Both the position numbers and the translations under genes were made by a program. Under the pieces are notes generated by a model that saw nothing but the letters and a program-made list of their open reading frames with translations, did not search any database and was not told the origin of the DNA. From the NCBI GenBank assembly GCA_008501735.1, contig QQUF01000024.1, forward strand, positions 1-60,559: a stretch of DNA of 60,559 bases. Direction: 5' to 3'. The stretch is from Calditrichota bacterium (GTDB taxonomy: Bacteria > CLD3). Numbering within the stretch: position 1 is the first letter of the stretch; each line of letters opens with the position of its first letter. Below, one piece after another: positions 35,294-43,780 of this stretch.

Positions 35294-37486
35294 ATGTCAA
35301 AGAAAAAATATAAAAAAATACTAATTCCCTCTGCTCTTCTTATAGCTTCTGTTATCATAGCAATGATTCTTAATGCAACATTCCTTTTTGAAAGGCTCGA
35401 GTTAAAACTCTACGACTTGAGAATGCTTTATAAAGGAGCAACTTCGACAGAACATTCTGACATAATTTTAATTGACATTAGTGATGATACTTGCCTTGAG
35501 TTAGGTGAAAGATTTCCAATTTCAAGAAACCATTATGCAACTTTAATAAGAAATTTAACCTTAGCTGGTACAAAATTAATTGTTTTTGATATTCAGTTTA
35601 CAGAACCAGATTTGAAAAATCCTGAACACGATGATGATTTGGCACTAGCAATTGCTGAATGCGGAAATGTTATTTCTGCGGGAAAATATTTTTACGATAC
35701 CATAAAAGGAAATTTAATTCCTGTTGAAGTTGCACCAATTCCAAAAATAAAAAATGCTAGTCTCGAATGGGGAACAGTTGGTGAGATTAAAGACTCTGAC
35801 GACGTTTTGAGAAATTATAGCCTTTTTACTTTGGACAAAGATTCAACGACAAAACTTTCAATTGGAATGCAAGCAATCAAACATTTACGAGATTTTAAAA
35901 AAGATGAAGAAATTACTTTTGATGCAGAGGAAATTCGATTTGGTGATTATGTAATGCCAAGAAGTCGAGGTGGGAATGAGATGTTCATAAATTATTACGG
36001 AAACAAAAATTCATTTAAGGTTTGGAATTTTGCTTTAGTTTTAGACACTTGGGACGTGGATTTACTTCCTGATGCAAACGGTAACGACACAGATACGGAT
36101 TTTATGGATTTATACATCGGTGATTTTGAAGGAATACCAGATTCAATTCGACAGAAAATTCAGGCTAAAAATCCATTCAAGGACAAAATTGCAATTGTTG
36201 GTGTTTCTTTGGCTGAAGCTCACGATTTAAAATTAACTCCATTTTCTAGAGTAAAAGATGAATTGGTTCTGATGCCTGGTTATGAAACTCACGCTCACGC
36301 GATTCAAACGATTTTGGACAAAAGATACGTTTCAAAGTTTTCAGGTGGATTTCTCTATTGGCTTTTTGCTTTTTTCTTAGCAACGTTGGTAACACTTTCA
36401 GTTATAAAACCTAAAAATCCAATGATTGGAATTCTTTTTTCAATAATTACAGGAGTTTGTTATTTTGTATTTTGTTTTTGGGTCTTTGATAAACACTACA
36501 TAATGTTTGACATCGTTTCAGGTGAATTAACCATCCTCATTGCTTTTATTTCTCAAAGCACCAATAAACTTGCAATTTCTATTCGTGAAAGAAAACAAAT
36601 TGAAGGAATGTTCGGTCATTACCTTCACCCAAACGTTATTGACCAATTAAAGACAAATCCTGACAAATTAAATCTTGGTGGAAATGAAGTCGAAGCCTCT
36701 GTAATTTTTAGCGACGTTGCAGGTTTTACATCTATTTCAGAAAAATTATCAAACTACGAATTAGTCGCACTTTTAAATGCATACCTAACAGAAATGTCAG
36801 ATTTAATAATGGACGAAATGGGAATTATTGACAAATACGAAGGTGATGCGATTATGGCAGAATTCGGAATTCCAATGACAACTGAAGAACACGCTTTTCA
36901 AGCCTGTCGTGCCGCTTTGAGAATGAAAGTTAGACTGAAACACTTAAGAGATGTAAAGTGGAAAAACACTAATCGCCCACCGCTTTATGCAAGAATTGGA
37001 GTCAACTCAGGAAAAATGGTTGCAGGAAATATGGGTTCACAAAAGGTTTTTGACTACACGGTAATGGGCGATGAAGTGAATCTTTCATCAAGGCTTGAAG
37101 GTGCGAATAAACAGTTTGGAACTTCAATTATGATTGGAGAAAACACTTTCGAATTAGTACAAGATAAATTCTTCATTCGTTACTTAGGTCAGTTAAAAGT
37201 TAAAGGAAAAAAAGAGCCTAAAGTTGTTTACGAACTAATGGATTTCTTGGATTCACCACTTAAAAAAGAATTAATTCAAATAATTGAACTCTATGAAAAA
37301 GGAGTTGCTCTTTACAAAGACAGAAATTTTTCGGAAGCATTAAAATATTTTAAAAAGACTTTACCTCTAGAACGAGTTGACGGAGAACGCTCACCAAGTA
37401 GTGTTTATATTAAAAGATGTGAAGAATTTATAAAGAATCCTCCTCCTGATGACTGGGACGATATTTCTGAATTAACTGAGAAGTAG
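35294..37486 (+). CDS. Class III adenylate cyclase with CHASE2 sensor domain
   Basis: This 730-residue membrane receptor makes cyclic AMP from ATP. A short N-terminal tail and one helix (about 8-30) lead to an extracytoplasmic CHASE2 domain (about 35-350; YDLRMLYKG, DIILIDISDD, FPISRNHYATLI, VVFDIQF-like segment). About three helices (355-430) follow, then the cyclase domain (about 455-650). SVIFSDVAGFTSISEKL gives the first metal Asp. DKYEGDAIMAEFG gives Lys, the usual ATP-selecting residue, and the second metal Asp. The tail (about 680-725) has one TPR-like unit. The layout is that of cyanobacterial and spirochete CHASE2 cyclases. The gene is bounded by a terminator upstream and a convergent gene downstream. 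Confidence 0.92.
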   Translation: MSKKKYKKILIPSALLIASVIIAMILNATFLFERLELKLYDLRMLYKGATSTEHSDIILIDISDDTCLELGERFPISRNHYATLIRNLTLAGTKLIVFDIQFTEPDLKNPEHDDDLALAIAECGNVISAGKYFYDTIKGNLIPVEVAPIPKIKNASLEWGTVGEIKDSDDVLRNYSLFTLDKDSTTKLSIGMQAIKHLRDFKKDEEITFDAEEIRFGDYVMPRSRGGNEMFINYYGNKNSFKVWNFALVLDTWDVDLLPDANGNDTDTDFMDLYIGDFEGIPDSIRQKIQAKNPFKDKIAIVGVSLAEAHDLKLTPFSRVKDELVLMPGYETHAHAIQTILDKRYVSKFSGGFLYWLFAFFLATLVTLSVIKPKNPMIGILFSIITGVCYFVFCFWVFDKHYIMFDIVSGELTILIAFISQSTNKLAISIRERKQIEGMFGHYLHPNVIDQLKTNPDKLNLGGNEVEASVIFSDVAGFTSISEKLSNYELVALLNAYLTEMSDLIMDEMGIIDKYEGDAIMAEFGIPMTTEEHAFQACRAALRMKVRLKHLRDVKWKNTNRPPLYARIGVNSGKMVAGNMGSQKVFDYTVMGDEVNLSSRLEGANKQFGTSIMIGENTFELVQDKFFIRYLGQLKVKGKKEPKVVYELMDFLDSPLKKELIQIIELYEKGVALYKDRNFSEALKYFKKTLPLERVDGERSPSSVYIKRCEEFIKNPPPDDWDDISELTEK

Positions 37487-37506
37487 AATGTTACTTATTT
37501 TCAGTT
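37474..37506. terminator. Possible bidirectional terminator between convergent genes
   Basis: AACTGA (37474-37479) with TCAGTT (37501-37506) and AAGTA (37481-37485) with TACTT (37492-37496) form a stacked hairpin with a small bulge. It spans the stops of the cyclase (plus) and the RND transporter (minus). T-rich stretches flank the stem on the plus strand (TTTTC after 37503). The stem is AT-rich, so the call is tentative. Confidence 0.4.
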
Positions 37507-39956
37507 TTCATTCGTCTATTTTCTAAGAATTGTAGAATTGATGGAAGAAAGAAAGCAGAAGCTAATAAAGATGCTGCAATTCCTGTAACAGCCAAGTAAC
37601 CCATTGAATTTAGACCTTTGTGGTGAGCTAAAGTTAAACTTGCAAAACCTATTGCAGTCGTCAAAGAAGTTACCGAAATAACTTTTGCTGTTGAGAAAAA
37701 TACTTTTTTTAATGAAGTCCTGTTTTCCTCTCGATAACGAAGGTAAATATGAACTCCGTCGTCAATACCAATTCCAATTATTGAAGGGAGAACAACCATA
37801 TTATAGAAATTCAATTTCATTCCAGTAAGCCACATTACGCCAGCCATCCAAGAAATTCCTACAAGAAGTGGAATTAGAACAAAAAAAGTTGATTTTAGAT
37901 TTCTCAAATCAATTAGTAAGAGTAGAAATACCATTCCCAACGTAAAAGCTATCGCGATTTCTACATCTTGTTCCATAAGCAAAAGTAAGTCTGCAAAAAT
38001 AATTGGATTTCCTGAAGTGTAAAAAGTTTTGCCACTTGGAATTGTAATCTCTCGAATATCATCTGCAAAATTTATAGCATTTTTACCGTCCTTCATCGGA
38101 ACAGAAGGATAAATATAAGCAAATTCACCAGTCGATTTATCTTTTCCGATAAAGGCTTTTTTGATATTAAAAGGAACATTTTCGATTGTAATCGGCTCCG
38201 TAACAAGAACTGCTTTTCTAAGCCTATCTAATCTTTCTTTGTCTTTTCCTTTAACTAAATCCGCAGCGTCATCTTCAACCAGTCTTTTTAATTTTTTAAT
38301 AATTCTAATTTTTTTCAATTGGTCGAAAGGAACAGCTTTTTCGATTGTTTTAATCTTTTTAATTGTTGGAGAAAGGGTATCAGTTTTGATTTTTTCCTCA
38401 ATTACTTGTTTGATTTCCTTGATTTCTTCAGTATTTGCTAAAACGAAAACAGGAGAATTATCCGAAGCGTCTTTGAAGACTTGTTTAATCTTAGCTTTAC
38501 CTTCATTAGAAGTTGCAACGTCAGCTCTGAGATTTGTAAAATCATATTCAAATTCAATATTTGGTAAAACTCCAATACTGAATACAGTTATTATTGAACA
38601 AATAAATAATGCTTTTTTCCACCACTTGATCGGCTCACCATTTAAATGCTCATAACTATTGACTATTGAACGAGTTGTAACAAAAGCACCTGTCTTTTCT
38701 CCAGCAACTATAAAAGCAGGAAGAATGAAAAGCATTGTAAGTAAACCAAAAATGATTCCTACTCCAGAAATAAACCCTAACTCTGAGAAACCTTTAAAAT
38801 CATTAATTGTCAATGAGAAAAATGCTGCTGCCGTTGTCAAAGCAGAAGTTGTAGTTGCAACTCCTGTTGTTGTTATCATAATTCTAAGTGATTCCTCTTG
38901 AGAATGACCTGCCGTTCTTTCTTCCAAGTAACGTGAGTAAAGGTGAACTCCAAAATCTATCCCAAGTCCGAATAAAATCACAATCAAAAATCCTGTGATA
39001 ATATTTAGATTTCCGATTGCCAAGTAAGTTAGGCCGAAAGTCCAGCACAAACTCATTGCCAATGGAATTACAATTAATAAAATTGAAACTATTTGTTTTA
39101 AAAGTGAAGAAAGGATTGCTTTTGGATTAGTTTTATCAAGCGGCTGCCAAAAATAAAGTAAAATTACTAACATTACAAAGGCTAAACCGTAGGGCAAAGT
39201 TCCAAAAATATCATTGGTTACGACTTCGTAATTGTCAATTTTATTTTGGAAATCTCCACCATAATAAATTTTTAAATCTTTACTAAACTCTTTTGGATTT
39301 TCAGATTCAACAATTCCTTGAATGTGTTTTACAACCTTTTTAGCTGTGCTTACATTGGTTGAACGAGCTTTTGGATAAAGTTGAATTAGCAGTATTTTTC
39401 CATCTTCACTTCTATAAAACTCATCTGGAATTTTACCTTTTTCGTCAATTTCGGCTAATGAAGTATCGTCTTCTTCCTCGTCACCAAATCCCAAATCCAA
39501 ATCAACAAACATTGGATTTAGTTTCTCCTTTTCCTTATCAATCTTGGATTTTACTTTTGTGTAAAGAGTCCTTAAATCTCCTAAAGAAAGGTATAACAGT
39601 TGATTTTTCTCAATAAACTCAACATCACGCCTAAACTCAACTCTCGCAATTAAAGAGTCTGCTTCAAATTTTGGTAATAATTTTTGAGCAAAATCATAAT
39701 TTGTCTGAAAACCGCCTGACTCTAAAACAATAATTAAATTACTTGTTGAACCAACTTTCTCTTGAACTTTTCTTAATGTTTTAACGCTCTGAGTTGTCTC
39801 AGGAAGAAGTCTATCAAGACTTGATTTTATTCGAAGTTTAGATCCGAAGTAAGCAGTAATTACTGAAAGAATTAGACCAAAAATAATTATCCAAATGTAA
39901 TTCTTTGTGATGAAATTGATATTGTCTCCAATTTTGGAGAAGAGTTTTTCGAACAT
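37491..39956 (-). CDS. MMPL/HpnN-like RND-superfamily transporter
   Basis: This 821-residue protein has the duplicated RND plan: one N-terminal helix, a periplasmic domain, five or six helices (about 245-440), a second periplasmic domain and a final helix bundle (about 650-810). The two halves share the SSD-like patterns GFLIVILFGLGIDFGVHLYSRYLEE and GIGIDDGVHIYLRYREE, each with the proton-relay Asp in the helix. It is shorter than AcrB-type pumps (about 1040) and resembles hopanoid (HpnN) and mycolate (MMPL) lipid exporters. It follows an MlaC-like gene by 29 bases, the pairing seen in hpnM-hpnN. It is the last gene of a ten-gene minus-strand run. The cargo is probably a lipid, by inference. 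Confidence 0.85.
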   Translation of the reverse strand: MFEKLFSKIGDNINFITKNYIWIIIFGLILSVITAYFGSKLRIKSSLDRLLPETTQSVKTLRKVQEKVGSTSNLIIVLESGGFQTNYDFAQKLLPKFEADSLIARVEFRRDVEFIEKNQLLYLSLGDLRTLYTKVKSKIDKEKEKLNPMFVDLDLGFGDEEEDDTSLAEIDEKGKIPDEFYRSEDGKILLIQLYPKARSTNVSTAKKVVKHIQGIVESENPKEFSKDLKIYYGGDFQNKIDNYEVVTNDIFGTLPYGLAFVMLVILLYFWQPLDKTNPKAILSSLLKQIVSILLIVIPLAMSLCWTFGLTYLAIGNLNIITGFLIVILFGLGIDFGVHLYSRYLEERTAGHSQEESLRIMITTTGVATTTSALTTAAAFFSLTINDFKGFSELGFISGVGIIFGLLTMLFILPAFIVAGEKTGAFVTTRSIVNSYEHLNGEPIKWWKKALFICSIITVFSIGVLPNIEFEYDFTNLRADVATSNEGKAKIKQVFKDASDNSPVFVLANTEEIKEIKQVIEEKIKTDTLSPTIKKIKTIEKAVPFDQLKKIRIIKKLKRLVEDDAADLVKGKDKERLDRLRKAVLVTEPITIENVPFNIKKAFIGKDKSTGEFAYIYPSVPMKDGKNAINFADDIREITIPSGKTFYTSGNPIIFADLLLLMEQDVEIAIAFTLGMVFLLLLIDLRNLKSTFFVLIPLLVGISWMAGVMWLTGMKLNFYNMVVLPSIIGIGIDDGVHIYLRYREENRTSLKKVFFSTAKVISVTSLTTAIGFASLTLAHHKGLNSMGYLAVTGIAASLLASAFFLPSILQFLENRRMKTENK

Positions 39957-39985
39957 ATTTTATTCTTTGGATAACCTTTTGTATT

Positions 39986-40570
39986 TTAACTTTTATCGGA
40001 TTTTTTTAGGTTTTCTTTGAGTTTTGAAAGAAGTTCCTGAAATGAAGACTTTTCAATTTTTTTGTAAAATGAATCGCGATATTTTAAAGCTGTTGAAGCT
40101 TCGTCAATAATTGTATCGTAAACTTTCCAATTTCCATCTGACTTGTGCATTTTATAACAAATGTCTGTGCTTGAATCCTTATAGTAAGCAATTGTGTAAA
40201 CGATTACTTTTTCATTGTCGTATTCAGGCTCATCGTATTCGATTTCGTCAGCTTTGTAAATACTCAATTTTTTTACAGATTGGTTACTAATTAATTCTTT
40301 AAAAGTATTAATAAAATCAATTTTTTCTTCTGATGAAATCTCTTCCCAATGCTTTCCAAGTGCTACTTTTGAGAGTTCTTCAAAATCATAAACTTTATTT
40401 ACAATGCTTTTTAATTGCTCAGTTTGTTTTGAATCCAAAGAATCTTTACCTGAGATAATTTCTTTAATTTCAGAATCACGGTTTTTCAAAGTCTGAATTG
40501 GATCTTCTGCAAAAAGTAAATTTGCAAAAATTGTAAGAATAATTAGTGAAGTTATTTTGAAAAATTTCAT
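39986..40570 (-). CDS. MlaC/Ttg2D-family periplasmic lipid-binding protein
   Basis: This 194-residue exported protein has a signal peptide (about 21 residues, ending LFAED). The MlaC pattern follows: QTLKNRDSEIKEII near the start, VYDFEELSKVALGKHWEEISSEEK around 70-90, FINTFKELISNQSVKKL, then the beta-rich half with VIVYTIAYYKDSSTDICYKMHKSDGNWKVYDTIIDEAS. MlaC proteins carry phospholipids across the periplasm, and HpnM is a relative for hopanoids. No MlaD/E/F ATPase system is present here; the partner is instead the RND transporter next door. It lies 14 bases after DUF3047. Confidence 0.85.
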   Translation of the reverse strand: MKFFKITSLIILTIFANLLFAEDPIQTLKNRDSEIKEIISGKDSLDSKQTEQLKSIVNKVYDFEELSKVALGKHWEEISSEEKIDFINTFKELISNQSVKKLSIYKADEIEYDEPEYDNEKVIVYTIAYYKDSSTDICYKMHKSDGNWKVYDTIIDEASTALKYRDSFYKKIEKSSFQELLSKLKENLKKSDKS

Positions 40571-40584
40571 TGTTTTAACCTTTT

Positions 40585-41325
40585 CTATTTTTTTTCTACT
40601 TCTACTTTAGAGCCTGAAAAGTGTTTAGATGGGTAAGCAATTAGTTCATCATAATCAGCACTTGCTTCTGTCCCAGTTGAGTTTCCGTCAGTCAAAAAGC
40701 CAATTGCTAAAATTTTGTTGTCTGGTTTTTCCCCCCAAGCTTTTTCAAAATCTTCTGCCAAATTTCTTGTAACTGTTACCCATTCGCCGACATTTTCTTT
40801 TCCAGATTGAACAACGATAACGTGAGGTTTACCCAACTTTTCTTTTCTAAATTCTGTTCCTTCGGGCAAAGTGCTCCCCCAAATGTATTTTATACTTTTA
40901 GGAATACCAAAAAAGTTACGTTTGAAAGTTATGTATAGCCCTGCTGCTGAATCGTTTTTACCTTTCCAAGCATCTGCATCTTCAGGCAACTTTCTAACTC
41001 GCCATTTCCAAGTGAGTACAGGATATTTTTTCAAATTCCACTTAACTTCTTTACCAATAATTATTGATTGACCAGTGTCATCAGCTTTTAAATATTTATT
41101 TTCATTTTCTTCTGCAATAATGTAAGGTTTGAAAACTCCATCGTCTTCTTCGTGCTTTTTCATTGACCAGCCATTTCTCCATTTGAGCCAAGAAGGATAT
41201 TCGCCGACGACACCTTTGGAAAAATCTTCAATAATTAATGAATCTTTAGTAGTTTCATTAGCCAAGACAAAACTTCCAAGAAGCATTGCCAATAAAAAGA
41301 TAATTTTATATTTTAAATTTTTCAT
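40585..41325 (-). CDS. DUF3047 family exported protein
   Basis: This 246-residue protein has a signal peptide of about 22 residues (ending FVLANET). The DUF3047 pattern is seen in DFSKGVVGEYPSWLKWRNGW, YPVLTWKWRVRKLPE, NDSAAGLYITFKR, IKYIWGSTLPEGTEF and the C-terminal KILAIGFLTDGNSTGTEASADYDEL. The family is predicted to form a beta-sandwich, carbohydrate- or lipid-binding like, but the function is unknown. It lies between TolC (four-base gap) and MlaC-like (14-base gap), so a role in the same envelope transport path is likely. Confidence 0.8.
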   Translation of the reverse strand: MKNLKYKIIFLLAMLLGSFVLANETTKDSLIIEDFSKGVVGEYPSWLKWRNGWSMKKHEEDDGVFKPYIIAEENENKYLKADDTGQSIIIGKEVKWNLKKYPVLTWKWRVRKLPEDADAWKGKNDSAAGLYITFKRNFFGIPKSIKYIWGSTLPEGTEFRKEKLGKPHVIVVQSGKENVGEWVTVTRNLAEDFEKAWGEKPDNKILAIGFLTDGNSTGTEASADYDELIAYPSKHFSGSKVEVEKK

Positions 41326-41329
41326 AAGC

Positions 41330-42688
41330 CTAATACTTAATTAATTCTATTCCGCTTACTTTTTCTAATTTCGCAATTGCAAGATTAAATTTGTAAACTG
41401 TGTCTAAATATTTTTGTTCTGTTTCAACTTTTGCCGAAAATGCTTCAACTAACTCTTTGAGTTCACCCAAACCTAAGTCATAATCCGAAGCAGTAGTTTT
41501 GTACCAACCACTTGTCATTTTCGTCATTCGGCTTAACTCCCTAACTGTTAATCTCAAATCCTCTGCTTCAAGAAATGCCTTTTTGACTTCTAATTTTATA
41601 CCTTCTTTTGAGTACTTTTCCTTTGCCAAAAGTTCTTGGTATTCAAATTTTGCCTTCTCAACTTTTTTGCTTGAAACGTGGAAACCCAAATTTTGCTTAA
41701 AACCAATTACAGCTTTGTAACTATTGAAATTAGAATTATCAACTAAAAATGGATTGTCAATGTCATCTCTTCCAGGAGTTTTATTAAACTTGTATTCAGC
41801 TCCAATAAAAAATTGTGGGAAAAATTCTGACCTTGCTTCTTCAAGTAAAAATTTTTTTGCTTGAATCCCAAATTTTAGTTGTTGGAAGTCTGCTCTACTC
41901 TGAAATGATTTTTCGATTAAAATATTTAAATCAGACTTTTCAAATTTAACCGAAGCCAATTTTTCATCTTCTAAAAAAAGTGAATCTGAGTAATTTATCC
42001 CTAAAGTTAGTTTCAAAACTTCCAAAGATAAAATTTTGGCTGTTTCCGCTTGTCTTACTTTCTCTTTAACTTCTGTTTCTCTAAGTTTAATTTTGAACAA
42101 ATCAGCTTGAGTTACTTCTCCTAATCCTTCTTCAAGTTTATCTTCTACTTTTTTCTTTGCTTCTTTAATTTTTTTCTGCGTATCATTTGAAAGTTCAACC
42201 AATTCACTTGCAAGCAAGTAAGACCAATAATATTTTTTAACGTCATAAAGAATATCAATTTTCTCACTTTGAAAATCAAACGATTGAACTTTGATGTTTG
42301 CTTTTGCCGCATTTTTCAAACCCGAAAGTTTGCCAAAAGTAAAAATTGGTTGTAAAGCCTCAACTTTGAAATCTGTAAAAGGTCCCCAATCTGAGTAAGA
42401 ATCTTCGCTTTTGTTCGCATAGGCATAATTAATTGAATCAATTCTTATTGCATCAACTCCCGGAACAAATCCAGAAGCATTTCTCAAAGTTAGTATCGGA
42501 AGAAAGTAACTTCGTTTTACTTGCTCTAATTTATTTTCAGCGATTTTAATTTTGAATCTTTTCTCTTTAAGCTGAAGATTTTGCTCAGAAGCAATTTTTA
42601 ACGCTTCTTCCAAATTCAATCTATAAATTTTTTGAGCAAATAAATTTGAAAAAAGTGTAAAGATTATCAATAAGGAAACAAGTTTCAT
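41330..42688 (-). CDS. TolC-family outer-membrane channel protein
   Basis: This 452-residue protein has a signal peptide (about 18 residues, ending LFAQ). It shows two repeats of the outer-membrane efflux protein pattern: LNLEEALKIASEQNLQLKEKRFKIKIAENKLEQVKRSYFLP at the start, and the second unit from ILIEKSFQSRADFQQLKF. Long coiled-coil helices with heptads match the periplasmic tunnel. TolC proteins form trimeric ducts for RND or type I exporters. Here no membrane-fusion adaptor gene is seen, and the gene is followed by DUF3047, MlaC-like and RND genes. It is 51 bases after the K+ channel gene in the same run. Confidence 0.88.
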   Translation of the reverse strand: MKLVSLLIIFTLFSNLFAQKIYRLNLEEALKIASEQNLQLKEKRFKIKIAENKLEQVKRSYFLPILTLRNASGFVPGVDAIRIDSINYAYANKSEDSYSDWGPFTDFKVEALQPIFTFGKLSGLKNAAKANIKVQSFDFQSEKIDILYDVKKYYWSYLLASELVELSNDTQKKIKEAKKKVEDKLEEGLGEVTQADLFKIKLRETEVKEKVRQAETAKILSLEVLKLTLGINYSDSLFLEDEKLASVKFEKSDLNILIEKSFQSRADFQQLKFGIQAKKFLLEEARSEFFPQFFIGAEYKFNKTPGRDDIDNPFLVDNSNFNSYKAVIGFKQNLGFHVSSKKVEKAKFEYQELLAKEKYSKEGIKLEVKKAFLEAEDLRLTVRELSRMTKMTSGWYKTTASDYDLGLGELKELVEAFSAKVETEQKYLDTVYKFNLAIAKLEKVSGIELIKY

Positions 42689-42739: not shown

Positions 42740-43780
42740 TTAATCTTCGTTTAACAAAAATTTTCTTGCTTGTTCAACTTGAACATAACTGCCTAATAAA
42801 ATCAAAACATCACTTATATCCAATTGAATATCAGGATTTGGATTAAATTTTATAAGTTGAGTCAAATGGTTTTTTATACCTATAATCATTGCTCCACTTT
42901 CCTGACGAATATTCGATTCCTTAATCATTTTACCTATAACTGGAGATTTTTTGTTTAATTCAACTTCTTCAATTGTTAAGAATATATCATCTTCACCAAA
43001 AACCATTGAATCCAAAAAGTCCGCAACGTGAGGTCGCAGCAAAGTTAAAGCCATTCTTTTTCCACCAATAACATTAGGTGCAACAACAACATTTGCACCA
43101 GCTCGAAATAATTTTTTCTCAGTGGAAGAATAAGAAGCTCGTGTAACAATGTGAAGTTTTTTGCTCATTTCTCTTGCAGTCAAAGTTACAAAAACATTGT
43201 CAGCATCACTTGCAAGTGCAGCAACAAGACCTTTTGCTCTTTCAATTCCAGCGAGTTGTAAAACTTCATCTTCGATTGCACTTCCGTGAATTACAGTGTA
43301 ACCTTCGTGAACTGCTTTGTTATATTTTTCATCATCAATTTCAATAATTAAAAAAGGCGAATTTGATTTTTTAAGTTCGTGACAAACTTGGACACCATTT
43401 CGTCCGAAACCACAAATTATGTAGTGGTCATTTAATCTCGAAATTTCTTTTTCTAATTTTCTGTCTTCCAAAAACATCTTGAATTCTCCATCAATTACAA
43501 AAGTTGCCATAGTTGAAAGTCCGTAAGCAAAAGAACCTAACCCAACAATTAAAAGCATACTTGTGAAAATTCTGCCTTCCATCGAAAGTGGTCTAACTTC
43601 ACCAAAGCCAACAGTCGTTAATGTAATAACTGTCATATAAAAAGACTCTACTAAATTCCAACCTTCAATTGCCATATAACCAAAAGTTCCGATGAAAGTT
43701 AAGCAAAGGGTAAAACAAAGAGTGAAAAATATCTTCCTTCGGTTAGCCAATGCAGCTTTTTTTAATAGAATTCTATCCAT
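42740..43780 (-). CDS. Two-helix potassium channel with RCK (TrkA-N/TrkA-C) domains
   Basis: The 346-residue inner-membrane channel has two helices (about 15-35 and 70-95) around the pore loop with selectivity filter TVGFGE (56-61). The RCK domain begins at about 110 (YIICGFGRNGVQVCHEL, a Rossmann dinucleotide motif) and ends with a TrkA-C unit (about 255-340). This is the MthK/Kch plan, with gating by ligands such as Ca2+ or nucleotides. The filter has Phe in place of the usual Tyr (GFG), a natural variant. It lies six bases after rodA in a ten-gene run. Confidence 0.9.
   Translation of the reverse strand: MDRILLKKAALANRRKIFFTLCFTLCLTFIGTFGYMAIEGWNLVESFYMTVITLTTVGFGEVRPLSMEGRIFTSMLLIVGLGSFAYGLSTMATFVIDGEFKMFLEDRKLEKEISRLNDHYIICGFGRNGVQVCHELKKSNSPFLIIEIDDEKYNKAVHEGYTVIHGSAIEDEVLQLAGIERAKGLVAALASDADNVFVTLTAREMSKKLHIVTRASYSSTEKKLFRAGANVVVAPNVIGGKRMALTLLRPHVADFLDSMVFGEDDIFLTIEEVELNKKSPVIGKMIKESNIRQESGAMIIGIKNHLTQLIKFNPNPDIQLDISDVLILLGSYVQVEQARKFLLNED

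Follow-up and report, generated by a model that had tools for sequence, protein, structure and literature searches.

A TolC-DUF3047-MlaC-RND operon of Calditrichota as a probable system for lipid transfer between membranes

A run of four genes on contig QQUF01000024.1 of a Calditrichota bacterium (CLD3; assembly GCA_008501735.1) probably encodes a proton-driven, Mla-like system that transfers a phospholipid or a related lipid between membranes. The genes lie in tandem on the minus strand at 37491-42688 of the stretch analysed (the window; 60,559 nt, to the whole of which all positions refer), are separated by gaps of 4, 14, and 29 bases, and specify a TolC-family outer-membrane protein (OEP), a DUF3047 protein, an MlaC-like carrier, and an RND transporter. 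The product is best inferred to be an energised lipid shuttle. The analysis shows the protein families, the gene order, a natural gene fusion, conservation, and a predicted DUF3047 fold, from which a lipid substrate, an inner-to-outer direction, physical contacts between the parts, and a role for DUF3047 are inferred. Both the direction of membrane-to-membrane lipid movement and its energy source are an open question, studied in few model species.

41330-42688, minus strand: TolC-family outer-membrane protein (OEP), 452 aa; PF02321, 122.6 bits
40585-41325, minus strand: DUF3047 protein, 246 aa; PF11249, 110.8 bits; signal-like N terminus; predicted jelly roll
39986-40570, minus strand: MlaC-like periplasmic lipid carrier, 194 aa; PF05494, 104.8 bits
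37491-39956, minus strand: MMPL/HpnN-like RND transporter, 821 aa; PF03176, 153 bits

Open reading frames and Pfam matches confirm the four genes, their families, their placement, and the gaps of 4-29 bases that had been proposed in an original prediction made from the sequence alone. All four proteins score above the curated Pfam cut-offs, which are 26 bits for MlaC and 27 bits for DUF3047. By inspection, OEP, DUF3047, and MlaC have hydrophobic, signal-like N-termini that lack a lipobox cysteine; hence, all three are expected to be exported, with DUF3047 and MlaC soluble in the periplasm. The RND protein matches PF03176 in two stretches, one per half, and its hydropathy profile has the two-fold layout of hydrophobic segments usual for an RND protein of about 800 residues, with an aspartate within a GID(F/D)G motif in each half. 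It therefore possesses the MMPL domain and two-fold layout of the HAE3/MMPL RND proteins, scoring 184 against the HAE3 subfamily model TIGR00921, under the cut-off of 351.9.

The operon's MlaC is the sole MlaC recovered by profile search from the whole genome. MlaE was found once, on contig C5 (L162:5557-10876), in an Mla-type gene run without MlaC that comprises MCE/MlaD, a weak match to an ATP-binding cassette (ABC) auxiliary lipoprotein, a 617-aa protein with no Pfam match, STAS-MlaE, and an ABC ATPase. With one MlaC, and an MlaFED operon that lacks it, the genome thus encodes its only MlaC together with an RND: the RND gene follows that of MlaC, while MlaD, MlaE, and MlaF are encoded on C5. 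The original prediction that no MlaDEF, membrane-fusion adaptor, or hopanoid gene was in view therefore stands for the locus, where neither the four operon proteins nor the two flanking genes show an adaptor domain, but it does not extend to the genome as far as MlaD, MlaE, and MlaF are concerned. MlaA (PF04333) was not detected in the nine genomes of the phylum, with a positive control in E. coli.

Conservation of the gene set

The phylum is small, and the nine genomes compared include a sister genome in the same family (G001) and seven genomes in a second, sister family (f2). The original prediction was staked on gene order being conserved in relatives and proposed co-occurrence across genomes as a check. 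All four genes are present in the same order in G001, with protein identities of 57-66%, and three of the four recur together in another phylum. The first four genes of the C5 run are also found together in G001.

The sister family carries MlaC- and DUF3047-type domains in one open reading frame of about 400 codons in all seven of its genomes. In six of the seven, hidden Markov models scored the two domains within a single frame, and two of these were confirmed with Pfam; the frame of the seventh (G005; 394 aa) aligns over its full length with the other fusions. Occurrence in seven assemblies excludes an assembly error. The fusion genes (L029-L035) overlap or abut a gene for an LpxH-like metallophosphoesterase, with an Lnt-type N-acyltransferase nearby in six of the seven, and neither an RND nor an OEP gene stands beside them. 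The RND proteins encoded elsewhere in this family were considered as partners of the fusion and rejected, as they group in a tree with the LolA-linked RND and not with the window RND.

Beyond the phylum, a DUF3047 alignment scanned against 84,980 genomes returned 69 loci, seven of which, from Candidatus Latescibacterota or Gemmatimonadetes, have OEP, DUF3047, and MlaC ordered as in the window. Within the Latescibacterota-type phylum, this three-gene run is present in 14 of 16 genomes and the DUF3047-MlaC pair in 15 of 16. A full-length relative of the RND (32-33% identity; E 7e-105 or better) was found in each of the seven such genomes searched, and in a tree these relatives group with the window RND and not with the LolA-linked one, the branch in question falling below the starred level and carrying a long-branch warning. 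With the order conserved in G001, the fusion in the sister family, and the three-gene run shared by most genomes of another phylum (14 of 16), chance neighbourhood is ruled out.

In eight Methylomirabilota genomes, DUF3047 lies divergently beside mlaE-mlaF-mlaD-OEP-mlaC; these regions were picked by similarity to one example, so that the count of eight is not a frequency. In searches with the Latescibacterota operon OEP and with the Methylomirabilis mla-operon OEP, the window OEP is hit at 1e-56 and 8e-42, respectively, as against about 1e-13 for the next OEP of the window genome, and thus one OEP subfamily accompanies MlaC in three phyla. As OEP, MlaC, and DUF3047 are associated in Methylomirabilota with the MlaFED ABC motor, the motor appears exchangeable. 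DUF3047 was present in 55 of 60 Methylomirabilota genomes, with up to eight matches each, some of which lie in very long open frames; in the stretches read, most of these copies do not adjoin mla genes.

On the DUF3047 tree, MlaC-linked members are scattered: linkage requires 5 state changes (gain and loss being indistinguishable in these counts), at least 3 of them forced by supported branches, as against 18 with shuffled labels. This speaks for a recurring association and not a single inherited accident. Outside the MlaC-linked groups, no recurring DUF3047 gene neighbourhood was found, bar lineage-specific ones.

Downstream of the RND gene lies a convergent CHASE2-cyclase gene, which ends at 37486. 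Other features of the window are as follows:

42740-43780: gene for a TrkA-domain K+ channel, its end 51 bases before OEP; RodA further upstream
2174-2268: selenocysteine tRNA (Rfam RF01852, 61 bits)

As the channel gene ends so close to OEP, co-transcription of the operon from further upstream is possible. The K+ channel and RodA surroundings are also present in G001.

DUF3047 and the proposed mechanism

The AlphaFold model of DUF3047, built from 73 aligned sequences, is a jelly roll with a predicted local distance difference test score (pLDDT) of 90.2 and a predicted template-modelling score of 0.85. Sequence searches found no solved structure at E values up to 1. The best structural match is the beta-sandwich domain of D-glucuronyl C5-epimerase (Z 14.5, with 155 residues superposed at 3.2 A), followed by CFAP20, the complex I assembly factor CIA30/NDUFAF1, and CBM11/CBM16 modules. 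Folds of this kind bind sugars or other proteins, and a shared fold does not tell which. Most of the nearly invariant residues are aromatic (W46, W106, W108, Y147, W149, W182). Lectin-like sugar binding may be considered a candidate activity on the strength of fold similarity.

The originally predicted role of DUF3047, that of partnering the MlaC-like carrier in the periplasm, is well supported by the operon, the fusion, the divergent placement beside an mla operon, and the predicted fold. DUF3047 thereby gains a first testable function, for which its natural fusion to MlaC speaks. Among the 5.39 million open-access papers covered, mention of DUF3047 is confined to one, a marine metagenome survey, and no description of MlaC together with DUF3047 was found, subscription journals and preprints lying outside that coverage.

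In the proposed mechanism, the RND would utilise the proton gradient to extract an amphiphilic lipid, phospholipid-like or otherwise, from the inner membrane and load it onto MlaC, which would ferry it through the periplasm. DUF3047 may act with MlaC in docking or in recognition of the head group. At the outer membrane, DUF3047 and the OEP would together take over the lipid, with the OEP as the outer-membrane station in the place that MlaA holds in E. coli. The direction of Mla transport itself is debated (PMC10665443). The role of HpnN in outer-membrane hopanoids suggests that the direction here is outward: according to the part of PMC10942540 that cites Doughty et al. 2011, HpnN is needed for hopanoid placement in the outer membrane.

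Some evidence on the substrate comes from neighbouring genes in relatives. A protein with a CDP-alcohol phosphatidyltransferase domain is encoded in Latescibacterota, its gene being 165 bases upstream of OEP; the sister family has a gene of this kind too, 25 bases ahead of a DUF3047 gene that stands alone. These neighbours favour a phospholipid-like substrate in the relatives, without thereby fixing the substrate in the window genome. Fused or repeated genes of the nucleotidyltransferase/CDP-alcohol phosphatidyltransferase type were also seen near DUF3047 in two phyla (L036:5985-10200, L042-L044, L048:3084-8245). Genes of this type near DUF3047 possibly belong to a pathway for polar-lipid head groups.

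A wider scheme can be proposed tentatively, and is somewhat less likely than not: outer-membrane lipid transport may be modular, with a TolC-family protein and a lectin-like DUF3047 replacing MlaA, and with an MlaC module driven by either MlaFED or an RND. A natural ABC-to-RND exchange of motor on one carrier would allow direction and energy coupling to be compared.

Competing explanations

Several observations weigh against a Mla-like shuttle of these four parts. No RND of the window type was seen in the sister family, and in Latescibacterota the RND is encoded elsewhere in the genome, unlinked to the other three genes. AlphaFold modelled the fusion with low confidence (pLDDT 64), which leaves the MlaC-DUF3047 interface unreadable. 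The window genome encodes several other OEPs, and its matches to the phosphatidyltransferase-type enzyme of the relatives are distant. Most DUF3047 genes of other phyla have no MlaC nearby; hence, the basic role of DUF3047 cannot depend on MlaC.

A different reading takes the operon for a pump of solvents or amphiphiles resembling AmeABCD, in which the RND would capture toxic hydrophobic compounds, the two periplasmic proteins relay them, and the OEP release them outside. AmeABCD shares this four-part logic and its deletion lowers monoterpene tolerance (PMC6394551), while TolC-family proteins are classic exits for efflux. However, only the RND is common to the two sets among the four Ame part families, the carrier here belongs to MlaC, a family of phospholipid carriers (PMC8035174), Methylomirabilota has the same parts in or beside an mlaEFD operon, and no degradation genes are among the operon's immediate neighbours. 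Efflux is thus an unlikely function. Roughly as improbable is the export of a special envelope glycolipid or phospholipid, comparable to the aryl polyene and flexirubin lipids handled by RND and LolA-like proteins; DUF3047 would then read the head group, either a sugar or inositol. The likeness of DUF3047 to sugar-binding modules, the precedent of ApeLMN (PMC8253772), and the nucleotidyltransferase/CDP-alcohol phosphatidyltransferase-type genes beside the trio in Latescibacterota and beside lone DUF3047 genes in the sister family are all consistent with this; yet resemblance in fold does not equal binding, and the window genome has no linked enzyme of that type, its homologues being distant.

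Transport of hopanoids or sterols, of the HpnM/HpnN or BstABC type and with biosynthesis genes elsewhere in the genome, is very improbable. Of the NCBIfam and PDB families, HpnN is nearest to the RND, with HpnN 5khn/6wu0 as its nearest solved structures, and HpnM is nearest to MlaC, but the scores lie far under the cut-offs: for the RND, 309.1 against the HpnN model TIGR03480 (cut-off 751.85), 192 against NF052374 (cut-off 1100), and 229.9 against the BstA model NF045600 (cut-off 1400); for MlaC, 71.9 bits against the HpnM model TIGR03481 (cut-off 160.1). Hopene cyclase (PF13243, the sole hopanoid marker searched) was not detected in the window genome, although control genomes matched, and the domain went undetected in eight of the nine genomes of the phylum. 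With no cyclase found and scores below the cut-offs, hopanoid transport was rejected. The window genome has several further RNDs, including a second HpnN-like one (859 aa) that is followed by a LolA-like carrier on contig C41 (L167:8012-11232; about 115000-118200); this carrier is closest to the flexirubin LolA2 model, and the RND and LolA-like pair is also present in G001.

Relation to known systems

The overall plan, an HAE3-type RND with a periplasmic carrier and an outer-membrane partner, is known from AmeABCD (PMC6394551), ApeLMN (PMC8253772), and BstABC (PMC10942540). AmeABCD of Castellaniella defragrans is likewise a four-gene cassette with an outer-membrane protein, two periplasmic proteins (one with a LolA-like, lipid-carrier fold), an HAE3-type RND, and no membrane-fusion protein; however, its substrates are monoterpenes (PMC6394551), and its partners are DUF1302, DUF1329/LolA-like, and COG4447 proteins, none of which is among the operon's parts, these being OEP, MlaC, and DUF3047. 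ApeLMN, related pairs of RND and LolA-like proteins, and BstABC each join an MMPL-type RND to a periplasmic lipid carrier and a partner on the outer-membrane side, but their carriers are LolA-like or BstB instead of MlaC, and DUF3047 is absent from them. In HpnN/HpnM hopanoid transport, an MMPL-type RND is paired with a periplasmic protein of the MlaC/HpnM family; the window operon differs in its scores under the family cut-offs, in the undetected hopene cyclase, and in the additional DUF3047 and OEP.

The Mla system (MlaFEDB-MlaC-MlaA) shares the carrier family, and in Methylomirabilota the OEP/MlaC/DUF3047 set lies in or beside mlaEFD, whereas the window operon has an RND as its motor and adds a TolC-family protein and DUF3047, and no MlaA was detected. 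MlaABC is described as mostly restricted to Proteobacteria (PMC10665443). The mlaEFD-tolC-tamB operon of Veillonella also has a TolC homologue within an mla operon and no MlaA, but it has an ABC motor and lacks MlaC, with MlaD itself thought to span the periplasm (PMC10665443). Tripartite HAE1 RND efflux pumps are encoded with an adaptor, of which the operon and its two adjacent genes are devoid.

The operon thus fails the tested features of Mla (motor and MlaA), HpnN/HpnM, BstA, AmeABCD, and tripartite HAE1 pumps, and is therefore a variant distinct in its parts from each of these systems, built on a known general plan. The novelty originally predicted for it holds in part: the plan has precedents in AmeABCD, ApeLMN, and BstABC, whereas this set of parts, and its occurrence with two kinds of motor, ABC and RND, appears to have been undescribed so far.

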